Source: Litchfieldia alkalitelluris (GTDB lineage Bacteria; Bacillota; Bacilli; Bacillales; Salisediminibacteriaceae). Taken from it: 64,000 nucleotides of DNA. Of the stretch, positions 585-62,714 are shown one piece after another; the first letter of the stretch is position 1, and every line of letters starts with the position of its first letter. Position numbers and translations under genes: made by a program. The notes beneath the pieces are model-generated. The model did not search any database and was not told the DNA's origin. It saw only the letters and a list, made by a program, of their open reading frames with translations. Location of the stretch: NCBI RefSeq assembly GCF_002153425.1, contig NZ_KZ119600.1, positions 1 through 64,000 of the forward strand, in the 5' to 3' direction.

Positions 585-3518
<2,934 letters not shown>

Positions 3519-3540
3519 ATTTTTAAAACTTCTTTAAGTA

Positions 3541-3602: not shown

Positions 3603-3718
3603 GTCCAGTGACGATAGCGGAGAGGTCACACCCGTTCCCATGCCGAACACGGTAGTTAAGCTCTCCAGCGCCGATGATAGTTGGGGTTCACCCCTGTGAA
3701 AGTAGGACGTTGCTGGGC
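3603..3718 (+). rRNA. rrf: 5S rRNA
   Basis: About 116 nt with typical Bacillus 5S sequence, including CCGAACACGG in loop A/helix III and terminal arms CCAGTGAC / GTTGCTGG that pair (two G.U). It is the last gene of the rRNA operon and is followed immediately by a strong terminator. A 3' portion of this gene is duplicated 289 bp downstream. Confidence 0.96.
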
Positions 3719-3722
3719 AGAT

Positions 3723-3754
3723 AAAGACATTCTCAATAGAGGGTGTCTTTTTTT
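3723..3754 (+). terminator. rRNA operon terminator
   Basis: 12-bp stem (AAAGACATTCTC / GAGGGTGTCTTT, two G.U pairs) with an AATA loop, followed by a run of T. It begins four bases after the 5S end and closes the rRNA operon. An identical copy follows at 4012-4043. Confidence 0.92.
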
Positions 3755-3922
3755 GTGTTTTAATACACCGAAAGGTGTTTATGGTTTATATGAGATGTAA
3801 ATTTGTAAACGAGGGAATTGAGGAGCAAGAAGGTCAAGGAAACAAGGGAGAGAGAATCGGAATGGGCTATGCCCATGAGAATCGAACGAGTGCAGTTGAC
3901 GCAGAGATTCGTAGGTAATCGA

Positions 3923-4008
3923 TTCCCGCAGTCCGAACACGGTAGATAAGCTCGAGCGCCGATGATAGTTGGGGTTCACCCCTGTGAAAGTAGGACGTTG
4001 CTGGGCAG
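3923..4008 (+). pseudogene. truncated second 5S rRNA copy
   Basis: The 3' two thirds of the 5S gene are repeated here. Positions 3956-4052 are identical to 3667-3763 (offset 289), covering the 5S 3' part, the terminator and a few bases beyond. The more 5' part (CCGAACACGGTAGATAAGCTC) has diverged by a substitution and a two-base loss, and the 5' third of 5S, including the 5' strand of the terminal helix, is missing. It cannot fold into a normal 5S. It is probably a remnant of a duplication or of recombination between rRNA operons. Confidence 0.85.
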
Positions 4009-4011
4009 ATA

Positions 4012-4043
4012 AAGACATTCTCAATAGAGGGTGTCTTTTTTTG
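4012..4043 (+). terminator. duplicated rRNA operon terminator
   Basis: Exact copy of the 3723-3754 terminator hairpin and T-run, carried along with the 5S remnant. It would act as a second, fail-safe terminator before the 51-bp repeat array. Confidence 0.85.
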
Positions 4044-4052
4044 TGTTTTAAA

Positions 4053-4314: not shown

Positions 4315-5040
4315 AATGAAGACTGAAACAAATGATAACTCATATTTGAGTCCTCATTTTCAAAGAATGAGGACTGAAACTTATTAGAAATTAAATTTGA
4401 GTCCACATTTTCAAAGAATGAGGACTGAAACTCATTAGAAATTAAATTTGAGTCCACATTTTCAAAGAATGAGGACTGAAACCTATGATAAATCAAATTT
4501 GAGTCCTCATTTTCAAAGAATGAGGACTGAAACCTATGATAAATCAAACTTGATTCCTCATTTTCAAAGAATGGGGACTGAAACCCATGAGAAATCAGAT
4601 TTGAGTCTTCATTTTCCCAGAATGGAGACTGAAACCCATGAGAAATTAGATTTGAGTCTTCATATTCCCAGAATGGAGACTGAAACCCATGAGAAATTAG
4701 ATTTGAGTCTTCACTTTCCCAGAATGGAGACTGAACTGCACTAAAAATTAGATTTGAGTCTTCATTTTCCCAGAATGGAGACTGAAACCCATGAGAAATT
4801 AGATTTGAGTCTTCACTTTCCCAGAATGGAGACTGAACTGCACTAAAAATTAGATTTGAGTCTTCATTTTCCCAGAATGGAGACTGAACTGTACTAAAAA
4901 CTAGATTTGGGTCTTCATTTCCCAAAATGAAGACGATCTCCAGAAAAAACTAGATTTGGGTCTTCATTTCATCAAAATGAAGACTAGCTCGCATGAGAAA
5001 TCAGCTTTGTATCTTAATCCTCCCAAAGTGAAGACAGCAC
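4315..5040 (+). repeat. 51-bp hairpin repeat array 1 (14 units)
   Basis: Tandem units start (GAGTCC/GAGTCT) at 4348, 4399, 4450, 4501, 4552, 4603, 4654, 4705, 4756, 4807, 4858, 4909, 4958 and 5009, i.e. every 51 bp except one 49-bp step, preceded by a half unit. Each unit holds an inverted repeat such as AGTCCTCATT / AATGAGGACT with a 7-nt loop, then a spacer like GAAACCCATGAGAAAT. Early units use a CCTC/GAGG stem and late ones CTTC/GAAG, a paired change that keeps the stem. The last unit is degenerate. Because 51 is divisible by three, frames stay open on both strands (4448-4744 plus strand, 4308-4925 minus strand), but no ribosome-binding site or recognisable protein supports translation. 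The same family recurs at 61936-62714. Confidence 0.93.
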
Positions 5041-5256: not shown

Positions 5257-5973
5257 ATGGAATGGGAAGTAATAACAAATAGTGAAACATTTATTATGAC
5301 AATCCGTTTAATCATTGCAGCTGCTTTAGGAGGCTTAGTTGGAGTAGAGAGGGAATTTCATCAACACCCCGCTGGATTTCGAACACATTTATTAGTGAGT
5401 GTGGGTTCATGTTTGATTATGTTGCTAGCTTTTTACGGTTTTCAAAATTATATTAGTGGTCATAATCCTGAAACAATTAATTTTGACCCTTCTCGTCTTG
5501 CTGCATATGTTGTAAGTGGAATAGGGTTTCTAGGAGCAGGAACGATTCTTGTCCAAGGATATACAGTGAGGGGACTTACTACAGCTGCGTCAATTTGGGT
5601 CGTTGCGGGAATTGGGTTAACTGTAGGTGCTGGTATGTATCTACCTGCAATTATAACAACTATTATCGTGATTCTAAGTTTATTTTTATTAGGAAAAATC
5701 GACTTTGGTTTTTTAATGAAGCGTAAAAAAAGGTTTATCTATTTAGTCGTGGAAGAGGGAAAGAGTCCATTAAGTAACTTAATTAAAGTGGTGGAATCAT
5801 ACTCGATCGAAGTAAAAGGGATCAAAACGGAAAAACAAAAATTATTTAATGATAAATCCATGATTGAATACAGGCTATATGTGGAATATGAAGATAAGGA
5901 GGCAATTATTTACTTAGCAGATCATCTAAATAAAGATGAATTTGTGCATCAAGTATACTTAGATGGAAAATAG
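5257..5973 (+). CDS. MgtC/SapB family membrane protein
   Basis: 238 aa. The N-terminal half has four or so membrane helices with the MgtC signatures VGVERE (28-33) and AGFRTH (39-44), and a Gly-rich helix following GFLGAGTI. The C-terminal ~80 residues form a soluble, probably ACT-like domain. Family members have been linked to Mg2+ limitation and membrane energetics, but the reaction is unknown. The ATG is preceded by AAAGGGGTGA. The gene is monocistronic, between the repeat array and ctsR. It is not part of the classical Bacillus order at this position and looks like a local insertion. The 216 bp before it contain nothing else I can name, apart from a possible TATAAT at 5195-5200 without a good -35. 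Confidence 0.9.
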   Translation: MEWEVITNSETFIMTIRLIIAAALGGLVGVEREFHQHPAGFRTHLLVSVGSCLIMLLAFYGFQNYISGHNPETINFDPSRLAAYVVSGIGFLGAGTILVQGYTVRGLTTAASIWVVAGIGLTVGAGMYLPAIITTIIVILSLFLLGKIDFGFLMKRKKRFIYLVVEEGKSPLSNLIKVVESYSIEVKGIKTEKQKLFNDKSMIEYRLYVEYEDKEAIIYLADHLNKDEFVHQVYLDGK

Positions 5974-40012: not shown

Positions 40013-40206
40013 GGTGCGGTATGGTGAGGTGGAGTGTGGTACGTTGAGGATGGTGAGGTGAGGTGCGTTGAAGTGAGGCGAGTTACGGTACGGTGAAGTG
40101 CGGCGAGTTGAAGTGAGGTGATGTAAAGTGAGGTGATGTAAAGTGAGGCGTGGTATGGTACGGTACTGTTTGGTTAAGTTAATTTAAGTTAATTTAAGTT
40201 AAGTTA
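40013..40206 (+). repeat. degenerate 5-bp-phased G/T-rich array
   Basis: About 39 consecutive pentamers of the form (G/A)(G/T)T(G/A)N, e.g. GGTGA, GGTAC, GTTGA, AGTGA, TGTAA and at the end AGTTA/ATTTA. They keep phase throughout except for one four-base unit at 40048-40051. T (rarely C) occupies the third position nearly always. The top strand is almost free of C at first, then drifts to A/T. No gene. Close GG tracts could allow two-layer G-quadruplexes. Confidence 0.85.
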
Positions 40207-40328: not shown

Positions 40329-40433
40329 CCTCCAAATCGGCGCGTAGCAGCCTGAATCTGGCGCGTAAGAGGCCAAAACCCGCGCGTAAACCTCCAAATC
40401 TGGCGCGTAACCCATCAAAACCCGCGCGTGAAC
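40329..40433. repeat. 21-bp tandem repeat, five copies
   Basis: Five units with GCGCGT at 40340, 40361, 40382, 40403 and 40424, exactly 21 bp apart, preceded by a degenerate GGCGTGAAC. Units alternate between CCAAATCTGGCGCGTAA-like and CAAAACCCGCGCGTAA-like versions. The minus-strand frame 40264-40464 spells an LRARFGG-like 7-residue repeat but has no credible ribosome-binding site. Confidence 0.88.
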
Positions 40434-61935: not shown

Positions 61936-62714
61936 TGGCTTCTTATTCACAGAATGGAGACTGAACTCGAGGTACGAGGCGATTTGAGTCTTCATTTTCC
62001 GAGAATGGAGACTGAACACGAGGTGAGAAGCGATTTGTGTCTTCATTTTCCCAGAATGGAGACTGAACTCGAGGTACGAGGCGATTTGAGTCTTCATTTT
62101 CCGAGAATGGAGACTGAACACGAGGTGAGAAGCGATTTGAGTCTTCATTTCTTCAAAATGGAGACTGAACTTAGGTACGAGGCGATTTGAGTCTTCATTT
62201 CTTCAAAATGGAGACTGAACTGGAGGTGCGAGGCGATTTGAGTCTTCATTTTCCGAGAATGGAGACTGAACACGAGGTGAGAAGCGATTTGAGTCTTCAT
62301 TTTCCCAGAATGGAGACTGAACTCGAGGAGCGAAGCGATTTGAGTCTTCATTTTCCCAGAATGAAGACTGAACTGAGGAAGTGAAGCAATTTGAGTCTGC
62401 ATTTTCCCAGAATGAAGACTGAACTGAGGAAGTGAAGCAATTTGAGTCTGCATTTTCCCAGAATGAAGACTGAACTGAGGAAGTGAAGCAATTTGAGTCT
62501 GCATTTTCCCAGAATGAAGACTGAACTGAGGAAGTGAAGCAATTTGAGTCTGCATTTTCCCAGAATGAAGACTGAACTGAGGAAGTGAAGCAATTTGAGT
62601 CTTCATTTTCCCAGAATGAAGACTGAACTGAGGAAGTGAAGCAATTTGAGTCTTCATTTTCCCAGAATGGAGACTGAACTCGAGGTGAGAAGCAATTTGA
62701 GACTTCATTTTCCT
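61936..62714 (+). repeat. 51-bp hairpin repeat array 2 (14 units plus halves)
   Basis: Units (GAGTCT/GTGTCT/GAGACT) start at 61986, 62037, 62088, 62139, 62189, 62240, 62291, 62342, 62393, 62444, 62495, 62546, 62597, 62648 and 62699, 51 bp apart with a single 50-bp step. Each carries AGTCTTCATT-(TTCCCAG)-AATG(G/A)AGACT. A half unit begins the array and a half unit ends it. Two spacer types occur: GAACTCGAGGTGAGAAGCGA-like on the left and GAACTGAGGAAGTGAAGCAA-like on the right, with a block of nearly identical units (62393-62596). Open frames on both strands (plus strand 61954-62384, minus strand 61903-62786) result from the period being 17 codons; I do not call them genes. Confidence 0.93.

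Follow-up and report, generated by a model that had tools for sequence, protein, structure and literature searches.

A 51-bp hairpin array behind an rRNA operon of Litchfieldia alkalitelluris, read as a possible DNA satellite with a fixed step

The first 64,000 nucleotides of contig NZ_KZ119600.1 of Litchfieldia alkalitelluris, which are the window analysed here, carry behind an rRNA operon an array of 51-bp units each of which contains an inverted repeat, and the question that this locus raises is whether the array is a structured RNA whose fold is under selection or a repeat that is maintained as DNA, an earlier note having proposed selection on the fold, as RNA or as cruciform DNA. Array 1 (Table 1) lies downstream of the 23S gene (585-3519) and the 5S gene (3604-3718) and is followed by a gene of the MgtC family (5257-5973). 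Its unit consists of a 34-nt core, most commonly of the form TTTGAGTCTTCATTTTCCCAGAATGGAGACTGAA, and a 17-nt linker, and TRF gave 89% matches and 0% indels over 4315-4969. The earlier count of fourteen tandem units with inverted repeats is a fair one if the degenerate ends are included, since the array holds about 13 to 14 units, and the stems quoted for the units at 4348 and 4501 and at about 4910 and 4958 are indeed present in its sequence. Upstream of the array, at 3932-4047, there is a second copy of the 5S gene end with a terminator-like site and without a full 5S gene, this copy being 118 bp long and 96.6% identical to 3643-3760. Our answer to the question, to which we give a probability of about one half, is that array 1 is a DNA satellite and not primarily a structured RNA, and that its growth is coupled to replication with a length ruler.

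Table 1. Positions of the array features in the window and of the loci elsewhere in the genome to which the text refers
Feature	Position	Strand	Basis
Terminator-like site 3' of the rRNA operon, about 270 bp before array 1	4011..4038	+	consensus match only
Array 1, family F1, 12.9 tandem copies, 51-bp unit	4315..4969	+	TRF and units printed
Lone 3' half-hairpin opening array 1 (right arm without left arm)	4315..4327	+	3' arm 9/10, 5' arm 1/10
First complete 34-nt inverted-repeat core, C-G type	4345..4378	+	core alignment
First T-A-type core; exchange and loop change at this step	4600..4633	+	units printed
Degenerate end units of array 1, about 1.5 units	4970..5035	+	sequence
Array 2, family F1, 15.2 copies, between rpsI and a convergent TetR-type gene	61939..62713	+	TRF
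Lone 5' half-hairpin closing array 2 (left arm without right arm)	62696..62713	+	5' arm 9/10, 3' arm 1/10
Y1 transposase genes	G000:C1 310186, 3714046, 3980816, 4187216, 4426070		
F1 loci between convergent genes, fork versus gene direction	L002, L006, L008, L022, L024, L035, L040		
F1 loci with genes against the fork	L013, L018		

Neither Rfam nor Pfam gave a family that explains the array, and in this respect the earlier note holds. When the window was scanned with Rfam there were six matches, none of them within the arrays, and no family reached its gathering score over array 1; a permissive scan of six loci of family F1, to which array 1 belongs, gave over the arrays sub-threshold matches only. 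Near one F1 array there is a c-di-GMP-I riboswitch aptamer (L009, 507-590, minus strand, 74.3 bits), and beyond another there is a sub-threshold match to the Bacillaceae-1 RNA (L015, 1184-1248, minus strand, 26.2 bits with a gathering score of 35). The antisense open frames over the arrays, of 205 and 213 aa, match no Pfam family above cut-off, the first giving no family at all and the second one sub-cut-off match to a plant domain, and a 17-residue repeat protein read from these frames was dismissed, with nothing above cut-off. Array 1 had no match in the plasmid collection, and pattern scans of the genome-contig and viral-contig collections, which may omit the own genome, gave 2 and 1 lone matches in unrelated records that were taken as chance.

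In its own genome, array 1 matched 48 places by BLAST at E up to 0.01, and a search with the core allowing up to nine mismatches found 185 F1 units in 31 groups, these calls resting on the nine-mismatch threshold and three of the BLAST places (L036, L041, and L042) containing no unit. Six F1 loci sit behind rRNA operons, array 2 sits behind rpsI, and many F1 arrays follow the 3' end of a gene in sense orientation, gene contexts being taken here and below from open reading frames rather than from annotation. Scoring every candidate from eight congeners, one of them 76% complete (G005), gave no F1 match at E up to 0.001, and a 34-nt match to the F1 3' module in congener G007 was judged by eye to be coding sequence and was set aside; among 51 further relatives, with at most nine candidates scored in each, one had a 25-nt match. 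Downstream of rpsI there was no 51-52 bp array in seven congeners, G005 having given no rpsI match. Some F1 arrays are flanked by end modules: the 5' module scored above the 99% level of random sequence at 9 of the 31 loci, the 3' module at 10, and both at 6, the consensuses having been written from the same loci that they score, and array 1 carries neither of them. The 3' module runs on into a GC-rich hairpin at several loci. The idea that an intrinsic terminator of an array transcript stands at the end of this module found no support, as the terminator-like matches are on the strand opposite the array at L026 and L008 and there is none at L015.

What the F1 units have in common is the arms and the step. 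The arms are far better conserved than the loop and the linker; between the rRNA-linked loci and the other F1 loci arm identity was 0.87-0.90, whereas linker identity was 0.31 compared to 0.27 when shuffled, and within loci linker identity was 0.75. The spacing of same-strand neighbours less than 100 bp apart was 51 in 146 of 148 cases, the other two being 50 and 69. Of the 31 arrays, 20 open with a right arm that lacks its left arm (at one of these the left-arm site has unreadable bases), and 23 close with a left arm without an in-register right arm, a shifted right arm being present by eye at four of the 23 (L005, L008, L022, and L037). Thus, the repeated module is right arm, 17-nt linker, and left arm, bounded by inverted repeats, and the loop is the joint. 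Array ends fell within 5.5 bp of the dyad centre in 25 of 38 cases in F1 (p 4e-8) and in 21 of 52 in other families (p 0.004), where about 23% is expected, the ends are not independent, and the count omits two arrays truncated at the edge of their locus and nine that lack a dyad; the loop rule fits the ends of other families less well than those of F1.

The same step is found in arrays of other sequence. In 864 of the 4882 kb of the own genome there were 30 tandem arrays of at least 140 bp, with periods of 51 in 8, 52 in 19, and 18, 82, and 152 in the remainder, which makes 27 of 30 at 51-52 bp and none at 45-50 or 53-60. Among relatives, surveyed for arrays of at least 140 bp with periods of 30-250, arrays of 51-52 bp were 5 of 9 in G007 and 5 of 8 in G003 (400 kb sampled in each) and 1 of 2 in G017 (200 kb). 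Not every member of the family shares the step, as it was seen in 0 of 4 long arrays of congener G002 (100 kb) and in 0 of 4 in G009, which belongs to another genus and has periods of 54, 56, 57, and 110 (200 kb), and the samples of G013, G040, and G043 (140, 140, and 120 kb) held no long arrays. At a blastn E of 1e-4 the 51-52 bp arrays group into 14 clusters, of which 7 belong to the own genome, for which targeted F1 loci were added, 3 each to G007 and G003, and 1 to G017. Because some of these clusters have words of 11-12 nt in common (F2 with 833035, F3 with F4, and F1 with F4) or adjoin one another (12810/13308 in G007 and 12796/13019 in G003), a careful count is lower, at probably about four or five families in the own genome and five in the relatives. 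F2 and F3 had no match in the eight congeners. A clear dyad is missing from nine of the 51-52 bp arrays, among them all five found in G007, which shows that the step occurs more widely than the hairpin and that a hairpin is not always needed. That the step stays the same as the sequence varies is indicative of a spacing constraint on the DNA itself rather than of a folded RNA. In open-licence papers we found no description of 51-52 bp tandem families in Bacillaceae.

Several other repeats were seen in addition to these arrays. Further 51-52 bp families of the own genome are at L099 (G000:C1:820000-839999), L115, L206, L110, L112, and L111, reach up to 33 copies (4677542-4679244), and in several cases have clear inverted repeats. 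In the window at 40373-40433 and in congeners at L134 and L140 there are arrays that repeat every 21 bp or so (and 42), which is two helical turns, and that have a short constant core and a variable rest, and between two genes at 40052-40148 there are short G+T-rich repeats spaced by 5 bp and its multiples. Near some arrays there is also a longer dispersed repeat that contains the words GTAGACGAGGTG and GGGCCGATAGGCG, separated by 152 bp at one place (G000:C1:2554827 in L206, downstream of L007, and upstream of L009).

The orientation of the arrays follows the replication fork. The best DnaA match is at 4.768 Mb and, in the stretches sampled, the GC skew changes sign between 2.26 and 2.50 Mb. 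All six rRNA-linked F1 arrays point away from the origin, and at 25 of 29 merged loci F1 orientation agrees with the fork. In three families orientation is associated with the chromosome arm, with Fisher p values of 1.5e-4 for F1, 0.0017 for F2, and 0.009 for F3, the last using the located dnaA position; the counts for F2 and F3 are of the stronger match rows, leaving out opposite-strand and short matches of the same arrays and one place with equal matches on both strands. At most loci orientation is confounded with gene direction. At nine F1 loci gene direction is uninformative or opposed, and 8 of these 9 follow the fork (p 0.02, one-sided), L035 being the sole exception; these nine were picked after seeing the data and rest on open reading frames, the count omits L009, L015, L025, L030, and L039, where the neighbour is unclear, and L002 takes the rRNA operon as its left neighbour. 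One locus, L011, runs against both its genes and the fork.

Taken together, the fixed step, the free linker, the conserved arms, the loop joints, and the fork orientation fit growth at the fork by strand switching. According to this explanation replication would both give rise to the arrays and lengthen them, through the folding of an arm in single-stranded DNA and a switch of the copying strand at the tip of the hairpin, and the joining of two modules would create the hairpin with the loop as its joint. The arms would be retained since copying would require the hairpin or a protein that recognises it, and the step would be set by a ruler in the DNA, which could be the length of about five helical turns (51-52 bp at 10.2-10.4 bp a turn) or the stretch of strand that one protein unit covers. 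It remains likely that the hairpin plays a role in DNA, and this reading requires no benefit to the host. It draws on one genome of the species, and the copying is deduced from the arrays themselves. Some of the spread of F1, moreover, is copying of whole elements by another route, as the six loci that share both end modules indicate. A broader and more tentative proposal, which we think may well prove wrong, is that some machinery or physical constraint in the genus generates or preserves short tandem DNA with a step of 51-52 bp whatever its sequence, and that satellites, often with inverted-repeat ends and oriented by the fork, are born repeatedly in each species, the step being inherited and the sequence not. 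If it is the length rather than the sequence that is kept, these arrays would reveal a ruler at work in the replication, repair, or packaging of bacterial DNA, and the birth of a bacterial minisatellite would become testable.

The main rival, which we regard as unlikely without being far-fetched, is that the arrays are phased protein-binding sites with a function for the host. Each core would bind a dimer and the step of about five turns would align the sites on one face of the DNA, for instance in a nucleoprotein block behind gene ends or in the organisation of the chromosome. Both F1 arms fit the half-site AGTC-Y-N-CATT with two free positions and appear to be conserved as sequence rather than as pairs, the step is fixed despite the free linker, and 13 of 41 arrays lie between convergent open reading frames compared to 6 between divergent ones, three of these six being behind rRNA operons. 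Binding sites of this kind would, however, need their own set of proteins in each species, given that F1, F2, and F3 are without a match in the eight congeners. In addition, the distance between arm centres, read from consensus units, varies by family (about 17, 20, 24, and 25 bp) so that the phasing within the unit differs, and neither the loop joints nor the orientation by the fork is predicted.

A transcribed structured RNA, be it a 3' leader, a trailer, or a small RNA, whose hairpins are under selection is a reading that the earlier note put forward, together with cruciform DNA, and it is possible but less likely than protein sites; we consider it improbable. The hairpins do fold better than shuffled sequence: three plus-strand units of array 1 had z values of -4.4, -2.8, and -2.4, and for the entire array z was -13 (plus strand) and -6 (minus strand), against 20 shuffles in each case. 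The minus strand of the same three units had -2.1, 0.2, and -2.4, and where it folds worse, in one of the three, this is because of wobble pairs. The exchange of C-G for T-A in both arms, on which the earlier proposal was built, is real and corresponds to core pair 9/27. In array 1, however, it occurs only once, between the units at 4549 and 4600, and it coincides with a change of the loop from AAAG to CCAG, and such a single exchange together with a loop change resembles the junction of two subfamilies. Over the 185 F1 units, 11 of 15 scanned core positions were at least 96% Watson-Crick and nearly invariant. Pair 9/27 was TA in 95, CG in 52, TG in 27, CA in 8, and other in 3; pair 10/26 was Watson-Crick in 28%, wobble in 52%, and mismatched in 21%; and at position 4/32 there were 149 units with a G-G mismatch and 20 with C-C. 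At L013 (981252-981694) the loops of the units read inverted relative to the arms and flanks, as from a flipped hairpin loop. Inversion of the hairpin as the source of the change from G-G to C-C was considered and given little weight, since the inverted loop is found in L013 only.

Excess pairing is there when one unit per locus is taken, with 94% paired compared to 82% expected at 9/27 and 83% compared to 65% at 10/26, while 15/21 is at 95% as expected (95%) and 4/32 is below chance, at 11% compared to 23%. The excess thus concerns two pairs, and unpaired neighbours are associated just as strongly: with 181 units used, 123 of them distinct, four minority-strand units of L013 having been dropped, the association G was 54.6 for the paired columns 9/27, 62.9 for the unpaired neighbours 9/10, and 56.8 for 26/27. 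The top corrected associations were 9-10, which is not a pair, 9-27, which is, 26-27 and 18-19, which are not, and 4-32, which face each other and are not complementary. The half-site in both arms would alone exclude most mismatches at pair 9. Some of the excess pairing is real, and linked subfamilies account for the double change as well as selection on the fold does. What stands of the earlier claim is thus the hairpin and the excess pairing at 9/27 and 10/26, and what is not supported is selection on pairing itself, against which speak the equal association of unpaired neighbours, the conserved G-G mismatch, and the weak pair 10/26. Also in favour of RNA, G-U wobble in plus polarity is commoner than A-C mismatch (pair 9, TG at 13 loci compared to CA at 5; pair 10, TG and GT at 22 and 2 loci compared to AC at 2), and, as noted, many F1 arrays are in sense orientation 3' of genes. 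Against it, over all families the gene-sense strand gives the better RNA fold in only 14 of 21 tandem contexts, the orientation goes with the fork where genes do not decide it, the terminator-like matches of the 3' module are on the wrong strand or missing at the loci named above, and promoter-like matches are near the shuffled number. Double changes in the arms of a hairpin need not, then, prove a selected RNA fold when the units form linked subfamilies.

We are just as sceptical, if not slightly more so, of REP-like or terminal-inverted-repeat elements mobilised by a cellular Y1 (HUH) transposase. The genome has five Y1 genes, four of them with open frames of 218-281 aa, fragments of two match the NCBIfam REP-associated tyrosine transposase below cut-off, and six of the 31 F1 loci have both end modules; REP tandem arrays of P. 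fluorescens are reported to be oppositely oriented on the two sides of the chromosome (PMC3116915). Against this, there is no array within 1.5 kb on either side of the five Y1 genes, where the best core matches are of 20-22 nt (E 0.009), and neither an empty site nor a target duplication was found. GTAG is present in the linkers of 7 of 185 units and never at the hairpin foot (0 of 185 in the last six linker bases), and CGTC is in no linker. An ordinary neutral minisatellite, with arms and step unconstrained, is very improbable and already disfavoured: variable-copy tandem arrays are common in bacteria and F1 units are alike within loci, but the arms are conserved against free linkers, the step is fixed, and the joints are at the loop.

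Compared to known systems, the satellite reading finds partial parallels. Mycobacterial interspersed repetitive units are dispersed intergenic tandem units of about 50-100 bp, a general likeness to F1. CRISPR arrays also have palindromic repeats at a regular step, a resemblance only, as F1 linkers are alike within an array and are not unique spacers, and F1 is at 31 loci. REP, BIME, and REPIN elements with their RAYT genes are closer, being extragenic palindromes in arrays that, as reported for P. fluorescens (PMC3116915), are oriented by chromosome side, and Y1 genes are present here as well; F1 differs in being without the GTAG tag and without repeats beside the Y1 genes, and Firmicutes are not among the phyla named in the excerpted portion of a GTAG survey (PMC3733652). 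BOX elements of Streptococcus pneumoniae, described (PMC3049150) as intergenic, dispersed, and stem-loop forming, with boxA and boxC as end modules around a repeated boxB, resemble F1 in the first three respects, and some F1 loci likewise have candidate end modules around a variable tandem middle. F1 differs from BOX in host, probably in sequence, and in having both end modules at 6 of 31 loci only, and the step seen here is common to unrelated families.
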